Notes under the pieces: model-generated
Told to the model about the DNA's origin: nothing
What the model saw: the letters and a program-made list of their open reading frames with translations, nothing else
Databases searched by the model: none
Translations under genes and position numbers: made by a program
Assembly (NCBI GenBank): GCA_028287235.1
Contig: JAQBQB010000026.1
Location: 124,001 to 188,000, forward strand
DNA length: 64,000 nucleotides
Direction of reading: 5' to 3'
DNA from: Gemmatimonadota bacterium
Lineage (GTDB): Bacteria; Gemmatimonadota; Gemmatimonadetes; Gemmatimonadales; Gemmatimonadaceae
In this document: positions 15,686 to 24,181 of the stretch, one piece after another
Layout of the letters: the number at the start of each line of letters is the position of its first letter
Numbering within the stretch: the first letter of the stretch is position 1

Positions 15686-16024
15686 TCAACCCGCCGCGCC
15701 GAGCAACCGGCGCAGGTCGATTCCTTGCCACAGTCGCTCGCGCATCGACCGCGTCTCGGCGAGCGCACGACCGCCGGCCGCGGTGATGGAAAAGAGCCGC
15801 CGCGACACGCCGTCGATTGTCGAGCGCTTGGACGCCACGAGCTCCTTCGCCTCGAGCCGGTCCAGCGTGGCGTACACCGCGCCGACGGCGATCTCGCGCC
15901 CGGTGACGTCTTCGATCTCACGCCGCACGGTCATGCCATAGGCGTCCGACGCGGTGCGCAGCACGGCGAGCATGACCTGCTCCTCGAACGTGCCGAGCGG
16001 CACTTCATCGCGCGCGAGTTTCAT
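15686..16024 (-). CDS. PadR-family transcriptional regulator
   Basis: A 112-residue PadR protein of the short (PadR-s2) type. It shows the winged helix FEEQVMLAVLRTASDAYGM, the recognition helix region EIAVGAVYATLDRLEAKELV and the wing SKRSTIDGVSRRLFSITAAG, followed by a short C-terminal helix for dimerisation. The motif G-A-V-Y-x-T-L-D-R-L-E is diagnostic. PadR proteins are usually autoregulated repressors answering small molecules and in related phyla often sit beside FtsX-like permeases; none is present here. A 13-base palindrome 48 bases upstream could be its operator. Divergent from the metX operon. Confidence 0.9.
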   Translation of the reverse strand: MKLARDEVPLGTFEEQVMLAVLRTASDAYGMTVRREIEDVTGREIAVGAVYATLDRLEAKELVASKRSTIDGVSRRLFSITAAGGRALAETRSMRERLWQGIDLRRLLGAAG

Positions 16025-16101: not shown

Positions 16102-16130
16102 TTGACGCTGCCCGTTCGCCGCGCTACACT
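16102..16130 (+). promoter_or_regulatory. Sigma70-like promoter of the metX-metB-cysK operon
   Basis: TTGACG and TACACT with a 17-base spacer. Transcription would begin near 16137, about ten bases before the SAM-II aptamer, which is the expected position for a riboswitch leader. Confidence 0.65.
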
Positions 16131-16147
16131 CCTTCCTACAATCGAAG

Positions 16148-16200
16148 TCTCGTGGTGATTTGCCGCCCATTGCCGCCACGTTAAACAAAGAGCTAAACCG
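16148..16200 (+). ncRNA. SAM-II riboswitch aptamer
   Basis: The segment carries the conserved SAM-II pattern: CGTGG (16151-16155) pairing with CCACG (16176-16180), the invariant TGATTTG after the first strand, TTGC before the second, GTTAAACAA directly after it, and the closing GCTAAA (16192-16197). The pseudoknot pairing TTTG (16159-16162) with CAAA (16186-16189) is available. SAM-II aptamers bind S-adenosylmethionine and are known mainly upstream of metA/metX-type genes in Proteobacteria. Here it precedes metX, and a terminator hairpin begins six to nine bases after it, suggesting transcriptional rather than translational control. Confidence 0.88.
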
Positions 16201-16203
16201 CGA

Positions 16204-16241
16204 CGCGCCCGGCGGCCTTCTCGCCCGGGCGTTTTGTGTTT
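16204..16241 (+). terminator. Intrinsic terminator directly after the SAM-II aptamer
   Basis: CGCCCGG (16206-16212) pairs with CCGGGCG (16225-16231), followed by TTTTGTGTTT. It would act as the expression platform of the riboswitch, stopping transcription about 200 bases before metX when SAM is bound. How the aptamer and hairpin exclude each other is not obvious from the sequence. Confidence 0.7.
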
Positions 16242-16257
16242 TCCGACCCATCTGCTC

Positions 16258-16359
16258 ATGCACTCGATGATCTCGACCACCGCGCAGTCCATGCGAATGA
16301 CGATGACGACCGCGTCTCCAACCGGAGCGACGGACGGGCGATCGCGCATGCGTGCGTAG
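16258..16359 (+). CDS. Methionine-rich leader peptide
   Basis: A 33-codon frame with six methionines, four of them in the first sixteen codons and in the pattern SMRMTMTT (MHSMISTTAQSMRMTMTT). It ends 34 bases before a strong terminator and 84 bases before metX. The density of ATG codons and Thr codons is far above chance and resembles the layout of threonine- or branched-chain leader peptides, but for methionine. No clear ribosome site precedes it. A pairing GATCG (16340-16344) with CGATC (16398-16402) of the terminator arm is a weak antiterminator candidate. It probably senses Met (or Met plus Thr) aminoacyl-tRNA. Confidence 0.62.
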   Translation: MHSMISTTAQSMRMTMTTASPTGATDGRSRMRA

Positions 16360-16393
16360 GTCTTCGAGTTGAGCCAACGACTGGCTTCACCGC

Positions 16394-16426
16394 CCCCCGA
16401 TCTCTCCACGAGATCGGGGGTTTTTT
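16394..16426 (+). terminator. Second intrinsic terminator (attenuator) before metX
   Basis: Perfect 11-base stem CCCCCGATCTC (16394-16404) and GAGATCGGGGG (16410-16420) around a five-base loop, then six T. It lies in the 5' leader, downstream of the Met-rich frame and 18 bases before the metX start, so it must be conditional or it would silence the operon. Confidence 0.88.
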
Positions 16427-16443: not shown

Positions 16444-17532
16444 ATGTCACGGACCATCGATGTTGCGGATGTCACGACAAAAGTCATCTCGAGCGGGCGG
16501 AGTGACAGCGGCGTCCTGCGGGAGCGAAGCGCCAGTGTCATCCTGAGCGAACGAAGCGCCAGTGTCATCCCGAGCGGGCGGAGCGCCAGTGTCATCCTGA
16601 GGGAGCGAAGCGACCGAAGGATCTCCCTCCCCGGCTACGAGCTCACCGGCCCCCGCGACGCCCCGCTCATCGTCGTGCTCGGCGGCATTTCCGCGACGCG
16701 CCACGCCACCGCCACGCTCACGGATCCTACCACAGGCTGGTGGCAAGACATCGTCGGCAACGGCCGCGCGATCGACACCGCAACGTACCGCGTGCTGAGC
16801 GTCGACTACCTCGACGGCGGTGTCACTCGCGATGGCCGACCACAGCGCACCATCACGACCCACGACCAAGCCGCCGCGCTCGCGTCGGTGCTCGACGACG
16901 TCGGCGTCGCGCGCGCACACGCCGTGGTCGGCGCGTCGTACGGCGGAATGGTCGCGCTGGCCTTTGCCGAGCACTTCCCGTCGCGCCTCGATCGCCTCGT
17001 CGTCATCAGCGCCGCGCACGAAGCGCATCCCATGAGCACCGCGCTGCGCGGCATCCAGCGCCGCATCGTCGAGCTGGGCATCGACACCGGACGCGCGCAC
17101 GAATCGCTCGCGCTCGCCCGCAGCCTCGCCATGACGACGTACCGCAGCTCGCAGGAATTCGCCGACCGCTTCGAATCCGAGCCGCTCTTCTGCGACGGCG
17201 GCGACGCGACCTTTCCGGTCGACGAGTACCTCCGTCACCACGGCGAGCAATTCGCCGCGCGCTGGCGCCCCGAGCGCTTTCTCGCGCTGTCGCTGTCGTG
17301 CGATCTGCATCGCGTCGACCCGCGCCGCCTGCGCACCCCGACGGTGATCGTCGCCGCGGAAGGCGACCGCGTCGTGCGGCGCGAGCAGCTCGAGGAGCTC
17401 GCCAACCAGCTCGACGTCCCGCATCGCTTCATCGATCTGCCGACCAAGCACGGCCACGACGCCTTTCTCACCGAGCCCGAACGCCTCGGCTCGATCCTCT
17501 GTACCGCCATCTCAACGACGATCGTCTCATGA
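16444..17532 (+). CDS. metX: Homoserine O-acyltransferase (MetX-type alpha/beta hydrolase)
   Basis: A 362-residue enzyme that acylates homoserine with acetyl- or succinyl-CoA, committing it to methionine. Features are the oxyanion strand LIVVLGGISATRH, nucleophile elbow GASYGGM with Ser165, an Asp in the VAAEGDRVVRREQLEEL region and the catalytic His in TKHGHDAFL near the end. The elbow reads GASYGGM rather than the GGSMGGM of many MetX proteins; acetyl versus succinyl preference is open. Residues about 14-60 are encoded by an in-frame array of short genomic repeats (VILSERSAS type) and have no counterpart in the family. TAGGAGA stands seven bases before the ATG. The stop overlaps the next start (ATGA). 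Regulated by SAM-II and Met-leader attenuators. Confidence 0.88.
   Translation: MSRTIDVADVTTKVISSGRSDSGVLRERSASVILSERSASVIPSGRSASVILRERSDRRISLPGYELTGPRDAPLIVVLGGISATRHATATLTDPTTGWWQDIVGNGRAIDTATYRVLSVDYLDGGVTRDGRPQRTITTHDQAAALASVLDDVGVARAHAVVGASYGGMVALAFAEHFPSRLDRLVVISAAHEAHPMSTALRGIQRRIVELGIDTGRAHESLALARSLAMTTYRSSQEFADRFESEPLFCDGGDATFPVDEYLRHHGEQFAARWRPERFLALSLSCDLHRVDPRRLRTPTVIVAAEGDRVVRREQLEELANQLDVPHRFIDLPTKHGHDAFLTEPERLGSILCTAISTTIVS
16483..16622. repeat. REPIN-like short repeats inside metX
   Basis: Five degenerate direct copies of gtcatcctgagcgaacgaag type. The clearest tandem units are 27 bases long and end cgccagt. The array ends with cgaccgaaggatc. All length changes between units are multiples of three, so the metX frame is kept. 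Confidence 0.9.
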
Positions 17533-18755
17533 CCTCCTCGCACATCAACGGCTCCGTGACGCGCGCCGTGCGCGCCGGCATCGCCACCGACTCCGCGCAC
17601 GGCGCGGTCGTTCCGCCGATTCATCTCTCGTCCACCTTCGCCTTCGCCGGCTTCAATCGCCCACGAACGTACGACTACACGCGCAGCGGCAATCCCACGC
17701 GCTCGCAGCTCGGCGACGCGCTCGCCGAGCTGGAACAGGGCGCGTCGGCAGTCGTGACGAGCACGGGCATGTCGGCCGTCACGCTCGTCCTTCAGCTCGT
17801 GAAGCCCGGCGACACGATTCTCGCCGCGCACGACTGCTACGGCGGCACCCATCGCCTGTTTCGCGCACTCTCGGCGCGCGGACACTTCAACGTCGTCTTT
17901 GCCGACCTCACCGGCGCTGACGCCGCGGCAACGATCGCCGCGCATCGCCCGCGCATCCTCTGGGTCGAGACGCCGAGCAACCCGCTGCTGCGAATCACCG
18001 ACATCCGTGAAGTCGCGGCGGCGGGCCGCGCCGCCGGCGCCATCGTCGTGGTTGACAACACCTTCCTGTCGCCCGCACTCCAGCAGCCCATCACTCTCGG
18101 CGCCGACGTCGTGGTGCACTCCACGACGAAGTATCTCAACGGCCACAGCGACGTCGTCGGCGGCGCGGTGATCACTGCCGACGCCGCGCTCGGCCAGGAG
18201 CTAACCTGGTGGGCGAACTGCCTCGGCATCACCGGCGCGCCGTTCGACAGCTATCTCACCCTGCGCGGCGTGCGGACGCTGTACGCCCGCATGACGCAGC
18301 ATCTCGCCAACGCGAGCGCCGTGGTCGATGCGTTGTGTAGTCACGACGCCGTCGAGCGCGTGTACTATCCCGGCATGCGGACACACACTGGACACGACGT
18401 GGCCCGGGGCCAGCAGTCCGGATTTGGCGCCATGATAAGTTTCGAGATCGCCGGCGGCACGGAGGCGGTGGAGCGGTTCGCGTCGCATCTCCAGTGTTTC
18501 ACGCTCGCCGAGTCGTTGGGCGGTGTGGAGAGCCTCGTCGCGCATCCGGCGACGATGACGCATGCGTCGATGGACGCCGCGGCGCGCGAAACCGCCGGAA
18601 TTCGCGACTCGCTCGTGCGCCTCTCGGTGGGTATCGAGCTGGCGGACGATCTCGTCCACGATCTGACGGCGGCGCTCGATCACACGCTCGCAGGCACGAG
18701 CGCGCGGCCGGCGGCGGTATCAGAGAATACTCAACTCGTAGGAGCGACCACGTGA
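17529..18755 (+). CDS. metB: Cystathionine gamma-synthase / O-acylhomoserine sulfhydrylase-type PLP enzyme
   Basis: A 408-residue Cys/Met-metabolism PLP enzyme. The PLP lysine is Lys201 in HSTTKYLNGHSDVVGG. Other signatures are YTRSGNPTRSQL, STGMSAVTLVL, HDCYGGTHRLF, VETPSNPLLRITDI and SLGGVESLVAHPATMTH. SLGGVESL with the long C-terminal domain fits gamma-synthases and beta-lyases. Beside metX and a cysteine-synthase gene, gamma-synthase (acylhomoserine plus cysteine to cystathionine) is the most natural role. Start and stop overlap the neighbours (ATGA before, GTGA after), so the three genes are translationally coupled. Confidence 0.9.
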   Translation: MTSSHINGSVTRAVRAGIATDSAHGAVVPPIHLSSTFAFAGFNRPRTYDYTRSGNPTRSQLGDALAELEQGASAVVTSTGMSAVTLVLQLVKPGDTILAAHDCYGGTHRLFRALSARGHFNVVFADLTGADAAATIAAHRPRILWVETPSNPLLRITDIREVAAAGRAAGAIVVVDNTFLSPALQQPITLGADVVVHSTTKYLNGHSDVVGGAVITADAALGQELTWWANCLGITGAPFDSYLTLRGVRTLYARMTQHLANASAVVDALCSHDAVERVYYPGMRTHTGHDVARGQQSGFGAMISFEIAGGTEAVERFASHLQCFTLAESLGGVESLVAHPATMTHASMDAAARETAGIRDSLVRLSVGIELADDLVHDLTAALDHTLAGTSARPAAVSENTQLVGATT

Positions 18756-19726
18756 ACGATGTTTCCGCGGCCCCATCCGCATCGTCCGGCGAGCGCGTCG
18801 ACGCCGCGATCGGAACGACGCCCGTCGTACGGCTGACGCGCGTCGTGAGCGGCACGGAAGCGGAAGTGTGGGTGAAGCTGGAAGGCATGAATCCCGGCGG
18901 CTCGATCAAGGATCGCACGGCGCTCGGCATGATCCTCGACGGCGAGCGCAGTGGTGCGCTGAAGCCGGGCGGCACGATCGTCGAGCCGACGTCGGGCAAC
19001 ACGGGCATCGGTCTCGCGCAGGTCGCGGCGGCGCGCGGCTATCGGCTCATCCTGTGCTTGCCTGCTTCGATGAGCATGGAGCGCAAGCGCACGCTCGAGG
19101 CGTACGGCGCCGAGCTGGTGCTCACCGATCCCGAGCGCCGCATGCTCGCGGCGATCGAGGAGGCGGAACGTATTCGCGATACCACCGGCGCGTGGATGCC
19201 GAACCAGTTCTCGAATCCCGCGAACCCGCGCATTCACTATGAGACGACGGGCCCCGAGCTCTGGGCGCAGCTCGACGAGCGCATCGACGCGTTCGTCTAC
19301 GGCTCCGGAACAGGCGGCACGATCAGCGGCGTCGGACGCTTTCTGAAAGAGCGGCGTCCCGACACGCTCGTCGTCGCCGTGGAACCGGCGCGCTCGCCCG
19401 TGCTGTCCGGCGGTGAGCGTGGACAGCATCAGTTTCAGGGCATGGGTCCGGGCTTCGTTCCGCCGAACTTCGATCGGAGCGTCGTCGACCGCGTCATCCA
19501 GGCATGGGAGGAAGACGCGTTTCCGCTCGCGCGCCGGCTCGCGCGGGAAGAAGGATTGTTCGTCGGCATGTCCACGGGCGCCATCGTGGGCGCCGCGCTC
19601 GAGATCGCGCGCGAGCTCGGCCCCGGCAAACGCGTCGCCTGTATCTCGCCCGACTCCGGCGCTCGCTATCTCTCGACGACGCTCTTCACCGACGACACCG
19701 AGCCGCCGCCGCACCCGGTCATTTGA
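18752..19726 (+). CDS. cysK: Cysteine synthase / cystathionine beta-synthase-type PLP enzyme
   Basis: A 324-residue fold-type II PLP enzyme. PLP Lys53 lies in NPGGSIKDRTAL; the substrate loop is PTSGNTGIGLAQ; the phosphate-binding loop is GSGTGGTISGVGRFLK; the C-terminal Ser-binding motif is ISPDSGARYLST. This matches O-acetylserine sulfhydrylase (sulfide plus O-acetylserine to cysteine); short CBS enzymes look alike. Starts at GTG overlapping the metB stop, with TAGGAG about nine bases upstream. It would supply cysteine to MetB and use sulfide from the reductase at 7.5 kb. No serine acetyltransferase is seen in the window. Confidence 0.87.
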   Translation: MNDVSAAPSASSGERVDAAIGTTPVVRLTRVVSGTEAEVWVKLEGMNPGGSIKDRTALGMILDGERSGALKPGGTIVEPTSGNTGIGLAQVAAARGYRLILCLPASMSMERKRTLEAYGAELVLTDPERRMLAAIEEAERIRDTTGAWMPNQFSNPANPRIHYETTGPELWAQLDERIDAFVYGSGTGGTISGVGRFLKERRPDTLVVAVEPARSPVLSGGERGQHQFQGMGPGFVPPNFDRSVVDRVIQAWEEDAFPLARRLAREEGLFVGMSTGAIVGAALEIARELGPGKRVACISPDSGARYLSTTLFTDDTEPPPHPVI

Positions 19727-23885: not shown

Positions 23886-24181
23886 TGTCAGCCAGAGCGC
23901 AGCCGTGTCATCCTGAGCGCAGCTGTGTCATCCTGAGCGCAGCCATGTCATCCTGAGCGTAGCCATGTCATCCTGAGCGTAGCCGTGTCATCCTGAGCGT
24001 AGCCATGTCATCCTGAGCGCAGCTGTGTCATCCTGAGCGCAGCTGTGTCATCCTGAGCGTAGCGAAGGATCGCTGTCGTGGCTGAGCGATCCTTCGACTC
24101 GCTTCGCTCGCTCAGGATGACAACGCCTCGCCTTCGCTCGCTCAGGATGACAACGCCTCGCCTTGGTTCGCTCAGGATGAC
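23886..24181. repeat. REPIN-like repeat array between lctP and the epimerase
   Basis: About nine head-to-tail copies of gtcatcctgagcgcagctgt with an exact 20-base period, running into gcgaaggatcgctgtcg. Inverted copies follow (gatccttcgactcgcttcgc, ctcaggatgac) with a 30-base period. The two halves face each other, so the whole can form a long hairpin. This fills the gap and leaves about 25 bases before the epimerase ATG. Confidence 0.92.

Follow-up and report, generated by a model that had tools for sequence, protein, structure and literature searches.

The metX-metB-cysK operon of a soil bacterium from the phylum Gemmatimonadota is very probably preceded by a double attenuator, with a SAM-II riboswitch and then a methionine leader peptide attenuator in series. 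The most likely reading of the second stage, judged from sequence and its comparison, is a trp-type attenuator that would read methionine codons (methionine and cysteine codons at metY loci, and cysteine codons at one locus) and would form a two-input gate with the riboswitch. The arrangement recurs in relatives across the phylum, before methionine-making genes. Methionine genes are textbook cases of control by SAM riboswitches and T-boxes, and ribosome-mediated attenuation by methionine codons was considered nearly absent. The original prediction of a methionine leader peptide at this site did not include the riboswitch or its terminator, and it assumed that genes for methionine are controlled by SAM switches and not by leader peptides. 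That assumption fails at the met operon because the operon appears to carry both in series. We analyzed a stretch of 64,000 nucleotides (the window), and the features that matter for this argument are:

16102-16130, + strand: sigma-70-like promoter (TTGACG, 17 nt, TACACT), identified by its match to the consensus only
16142-16218, + strand: SAM-II riboswitch aptamer (RF00521, SAM_alpha; 39.4 bits, gathering cut-off 36)
16206-16231, + strand: terminator-like hairpin 1 (T1), then TTTTGTGTTTT; identified by folding and by loop/T1 covariation across sites
16258-16359, + strand: Met-rich leader peptide ORF, 33 codons with 6 Met; counterparts in 19 other loci
16307-16336, + strand: hairpin 1:2 (16307-16319 with 16324-16336, 11 bp), directly 3' of the Met cluster; identified by folding
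16323-16340, + strand: region 2, the antiterminator strand; identified by its duplex with 16392-16408 and by co-evolution
16392-16408, + strand: region 3, the 5' arm of T2 and part of the T2 loop; identified by the duplex and by folds
16394-16426, + strand: intrinsic terminator 2 (T2), 11-bp stem and T6; identified by a terminator scan
16444-17532, + strand: metX, homoserine O-succinyltransferase-type acyltransferase (NF006449, 353.9 bits, cut-off 296)
17529-18755, + strand: cystathionine gamma-synthase, metB type (TIGR02080, 570.3, cut-off 504.55)
18494-19726, + strand: cysteine synthase A, cysK (TIGR01139, 426.1, cut-off 350.95)

The genes behind the leader in the window all belong to the Met/Cys pathway. 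The ORF for cystathionine gamma-synthase overlaps metX by ATGA. The homology of the cysK ORF begins at residue 104, and its true start lies further in. At its N-terminus, metX is extended (16500-16620 of the window) by in-frame units of a repeat that is dispersed (GTCATCCTGAGCG..CGAAGCG), and close relatives do not have the extension. Another count concerns GTCATCCTGAGCGNAGCGAAG, of which the window holds 20 copies (at 23907-24067 and elsewhere), as compared to 0.02 expected copies; a tandem array with a 20-nt period is among them. A gene for a small PadR-like regulator (15686-16024, - strand) is divergent from the met operon, with profile scores below the curated cut-offs.

The aptamer is the sole Rfam match in the window that reaches its cut-off, and from this covariance-model match it is predicted to bind SAM. 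No T-box was matched by Rfam in the window; besides SAM_alpha there were two hits at chance level. Because the putative promoter ends at 16130, the transcript would start just 5' of the aptamer, roughly 7-12 nt 5' of the riboswitch. Directly 3' of the aptamer is T1, a GC-rich hairpin that runs into a T-rich tail, which was missed by a simple terminator scan of the window and which ends 26 nt before the start of the leader ORF. Its 5' arm (GGCGGC) is complementary to GCCGCC of the aptamer loop. Within the phylum, the loop sequence GCCGCC is accompanied by a T1 arm of GGCGG at 30 of 34 SAM-II sites, and the loop sequence GCCGCG by CGCGG at 16 of 17. This co-variation (16142-16236 of the window and the sites of the phylum) suggests that SAM-II works as a direct loop/terminator switch, and it fits a loop strand that would be held in the SAM-bound aptamer and would otherwise open T1. 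Common ancestry may be a partial cause of the co-variation.

The leader ORF extends from an ATG at 16258 to a TAG at 16357-16359 and encodes MHSMISTTAQSMRMTMTTASPTGATDGRSRMRA. Its six Met codons (beginning at 16258, 16267, 16291, 16297, 16303, and 16348) lie in an open frame of 33 codons just where the original prediction put them, and the distance from the stop codon to the 11-bp stem of T2 is 34 nt, as it stated. When compared to dinucleotide shuffles, the Met cluster of the window leader is marginal (p = 0.025), and the joint count of Met and Cys gives p = 0.134. Also, 2 of the 296 ATG ORFs of 15-70 codons in the window have at least 5 internal Met codons, and the leader ORF is just one of these. 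Because the cluster is weak when taken alone, given its p value and the second such ORF, the support for the leader is comparative.

We found SAM-II in 202 of 298 genomes of the phylum. For a survey, we used the 151 SAM-II sites with usable downstream sequence, called T2 by structure alone and blind to codons, and required p ≤ 0.05 for a Met/Cys cluster. An open frame with a significant cluster was present at 15 of the 25 sites with T2 versus 5 of the 126 sites without T2, which is the chance rate. At most SAM-II sites there is a short spacer to metH, metF, or other genes and no leader, and the second SAM-II of the source genome, which has a metH-like gene behind it, also lacks a leader. A short ORF enriched in these codons is found across loci and is marginal for the window alone.

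In all three members of the genus that have this metX, the order is SAM-II, T1, Met-rich ORF, T2, and metX. Besides the window, these are G177, whose leader (MIISMRRMQMRMSMAAASLARGSDGRHRLRA) has 6 Met in 31 codons, and G144, whose leader (MRTIMSMTMRMMRMMRMTMRMTMRMTMRMTTASLSRESHGGRRMRG) is the most extreme case, with 16 Met in 46 codons that arise from a 12-nt tandem ATGCGAATGACC repeat. G021 and G023 have neither T2 nor a leader. The same order of elements is found in 17 further loci from at least four families, so that 20 leaders were curated in all. (Outside the window, gene names are from inspection of translations rather than from profile searches.) These 17 loci are:

Before hom: L065, L066, L173, and L219
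Before aspartate kinase: L211
Before metX: L073
Before metY: L018, L209, L261, L263, L268, L281, and L284 (for example, MSMCMCMCR)
Before an aminotransferase: L027
Before ATP-grasp-like genes: L272 (NCMCMC) and L250 (Cys only)
Before a sulfurtransferase-like gene: L274

Across the 20 leaders, ATG triplets number 98, 0, and 9 in the three frames (start codons excluded), and Met and Cys make up 13.4% and 5.9% of residues, versus 1.2% and 1.1% in neighboring proteins; these counts and percentages overstate the effect because the leaders were chosen for their Met/Cys content, a bias from which the 151-site survey is free. Most of the 20 leaders are not preceded by a clear Shine-Dalgarno sequence. 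The original prediction had proposed to look in relatives for enrichment of Met codons despite drift elsewhere, and this is what we found: the enrichment is kept in the open frame while the rest has drifted. At the metY loci, the leaders are rich in both Met and Cys instead of in Met only. We also searched 395 genomes with a profile of the leader peptide, and this gave six strong matches, all from a closely related subfamily; the remainder was noise. Among the loci examined, we found no convincing Met-rich leader 5' of metX outside of the phylum. A MAG from the Acidimicrobiales has a short Met-rich ORF (MRMTSMTSIANMRMS, L142:2061-2115) about 200 nt 5' of a metX homologue, with no SAM-II and no obvious terminator alongside.

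The homologous leader of L250 (G143:C23, about +100 to +269 from the start of SAM-II) has no internal Met and seven Cys (GCARTCACTCACACTV), which is an apparent switch in amino acid specificity. At L036, from a related genus (G080), both terminators still separate SAM-II from metX and there is no Met-containing ORF, so this leader is lost or under different control.

The routes to methionine and threonine diverge at homoserine, and the leader might sense threonine, or methionine and threonine jointly. In the window leader, Thr codons (7 of 33) outnumber Met codons, and the hom-type leaders (L173, MSMSTTTATPTGET, and L065) and the G144 leader are Thr-rich as well. However, there are no Thr codons in L034, L209, or L261 and just one in L211 and in L263, whereas every leader of the set has a cluster of Met or Cys, and the operon in the window contains only Met/Cys genes. 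We consider threonine sensing to be unlikely. It is less likely still that T2 is governed by translation of the leader in general (any stall or failed initiation) or by a protein, instead of by Met-tRNA specifically. L036, which keeps both terminators without a Met ORF, would fit such control, but the codons follow the pathway: leaders ahead of metX and hom carry Met, those ahead of metY carry Met/Cys, and L250 carries Cys.

The methionine attenuator also requires a terminator between the leader and the structural genes and a competing structure. An intrinsic terminator is present there, 18-40 nt past the stop codon, in 20 of 20 loci; in the window, its stem is formed by 16394-16404 with 16410-16420, followed by T6. 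The original prediction regarded the antiterminator as its weak point because just a five-base pairing had been noticed (GATCG at 16340-16344 with CGATC at 16398-16402). This pairing exists but does not belong to the best antiterminator, which we found elsewhere: region 2 and region 3 (16323-16340 with 16392-16408) form a duplex of 13 bp (-21.1 kcal/mol; z = -2.9 and p = 0.017 versus shuffles). It uses the 5' arm of T2 and is mutually exclusive with the terminator. Equivalent pairings between region 2 and the T2 arm are present in 20 of 20 loci, with a mean z of -2.4 and a combined Fisher p of about 4e-14 versus shuffles, which is indicative rather than a strict probability because the loci share ancestry. 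Furthermore, in an alignment-free permutation test, each region 2 preferred its own T2 arm to those taken from other loci (p = 5e-5), and this preference persisted when arms were permuted only within subfamilies. As the preference does not depend on an alignment, it implies that the leader and the T2 arm have co-evolved. A fixed-column count of covariation on the alignment was dropped because two subfamilies are offset by two columns in region 2.

We then folded transcripts too short to include the 3' arm of T2, with the ribosome placed either at the Met cluster or at the stop codon. In the first of these positions, region 3 was paired upstream with a probability of 0.75 in the window (mean of 0.77 across loci), versus 0.07 (mean of 0.25) with the ribosome at the stop codon. 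Once the complete T2 hairpin is present, T2 wins at equilibrium in most folds, even with a stalled ribosome, which implies that control must be kinetic and co-transcriptional. For hairpin 1:2, neither the stem length in a strict per-locus test against shuffles (combined p = 0.30) nor the local fold z-scores were significant; because the stem is not above shuffles, we only infer its role. Overall, the folding called for by the original prediction did turn up a competing structure that beats shuffles and co-evolves with T2, and together with the orthologues it supports the methionine leader peptide reading, with function in cells predicted from the sequences.

The conservation of this pairing also bears on whether the product of the ORF is a Met-rich microprotein with a function of its own (binding metal or buffering oxidation) ahead of an unregulated T2. 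The open frame, the conserved pattern of Met, and the recurrent DGRxRxRA tail of one subfamily are what a microprotein would lead one to expect, but the tail varies from one subfamily to another, whereas the pairing of the RNA is retained. The conserved Asp-Gly-Arg is encoded by GGACGGG of region 2, so the DGR codons (GACGGGC) fall within the antiterminator strand, and the size of the ORF, its position, and its distance to the terminator suit an attenuator, so we view a microprotein as highly improbable. It is just as improbable that SAM-II is the sole regulator and that the T1-T2 stretch is a spacer whose Met codons are due to chance or a microsatellite: SAM-II does serve metH, metF, and some further genes by itself, across short spacers, G144 does have its tandem repeat, and the p value of the window cluster is only 0.025, but this does not account for the survey (15/25 versus 5/126), the frame bias of ATG (98 to 9), the co-evolution of the antiterminator, or the occurrence in several families with different sequences. 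Chance and a simple-repeat origin of the Met codons were rejected on the basis of the survey, the frame bias, and the own-arm permutation test.

For the double attenuator, we propose the following mechanism. Transcription would begin just 5' of the aptamer. At high SAM, the aptamer would fold and T1 would halt transcription; at low SAM, the aptamer loop would pair with the 5' arm of T1 and RNA polymerase would continue into the 33-codon leader. If Met-tRNA is ample, the ribosome would trail the polymerase to the stop codon and mask region 2, so that T2 forms. If Met-tRNA is scarce, the ribosome would stall in the Met cluster (16291-16305) and mask region 1, and region 2 would anneal to the T2 5' arm, so that metX-metB-cysK is transcribed. 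When the ribosome does not stall, hairpin 1:2 would block region 2. We infer that the leader is translated in cells, that ribosomes stall on it, that termination and antitermination follow, and that the two inputs form a serial AND gate.

More broadly, we somewhat favor the view that this is a Gemmatimonadota-wide class of two-stage leaders, with SAM-II and a sulfur amino acid leader in series, in which the genes would be on only when the cell is short of both SAM and charged Met-tRNA (or charged Cys-tRNA), and in which homologous attenuators would have exchanged one codon specificity for another (Met, Met/Cys, Cys) in keeping with the enzyme encoded downstream. A single transcript would sense Met-tRNA as the precursor and SAM as the product of the same step, which would be a natural two-input gate. 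Leader peptide attenuation would also be extended to a little-studied phylum, and homologous attenuators with changed amino acid specificity would be useful for studying the evolution of sensors.

In the literature (mostly non-subscription papers), we found no earlier convincing example of a methionine leader and no report of SAM-II or leader peptides in Gemmatimonadota. Mycobacteria have leader ORFs with Cys codons, in which a short upstream ORF reads a sulfur amino acid; unlike the system in the window, these involve only Cys and no stacked riboswitch. As in the trp, his, thr, and leu attenuators of E. coli, a short ORF with a run of the regulatory codon precedes the biosynthetic operon for the same amino acid, with mutually exclusive 1:2, 2:3, and 3:4 pairings and an intrinsic terminator 18-40 nt past the stop codon. 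Unlike these, the putative leader in the window encodes Met (or Met/Cys at other loci), follows a riboswitch that has a terminator of its own, and comes from outside the phyla in which most such systems have been described.

In alpha-proteobacteria, many representatives of SAM-II (SAM_alpha) have a terminator after the aptamer (PMC1273637). The window likewise has an aptamer above the Rfam cut-off and then a terminator, but it differs from those examples in its proposed second attenuator with a translated sensor and in its host phylum (PMC1273637). The metA gene of Sinorhizobium meliloti also has a second terminator past SAM-II, ahead of a methionine gene, which was predicted to be unaffected by SAM (PMC9373788). 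That terminator, however, is flanked by two in-frame metA start codons and its authors predicted no antiterminator, and the accessible part of the study describes no Met-codon leader (PMC9373788). In Streptomyces lividans, a methionine leader peptide, metL (MSTTSDRTPATEATTTPGARCMCRRMCAF), was proposed upstream of metNIQ, and it too contains both Met and Cys (PMC8079986). In contrast to our loci, metL is leaderless, no rho-independent terminator was found for it and no riboswitch reported, and it was proposed from a single genome (PMC8079986). According to a survey of premature terminators, Proteobacteria and Actinobacteria were at that time the only phyla with known leader peptide systems, and the survey added the Firmicutes (PMC2965389). 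Relative to these systems, a methionine leader attenuator stacked behind a SAM-II riboswitch would be a known kind of attenuator in a new form.
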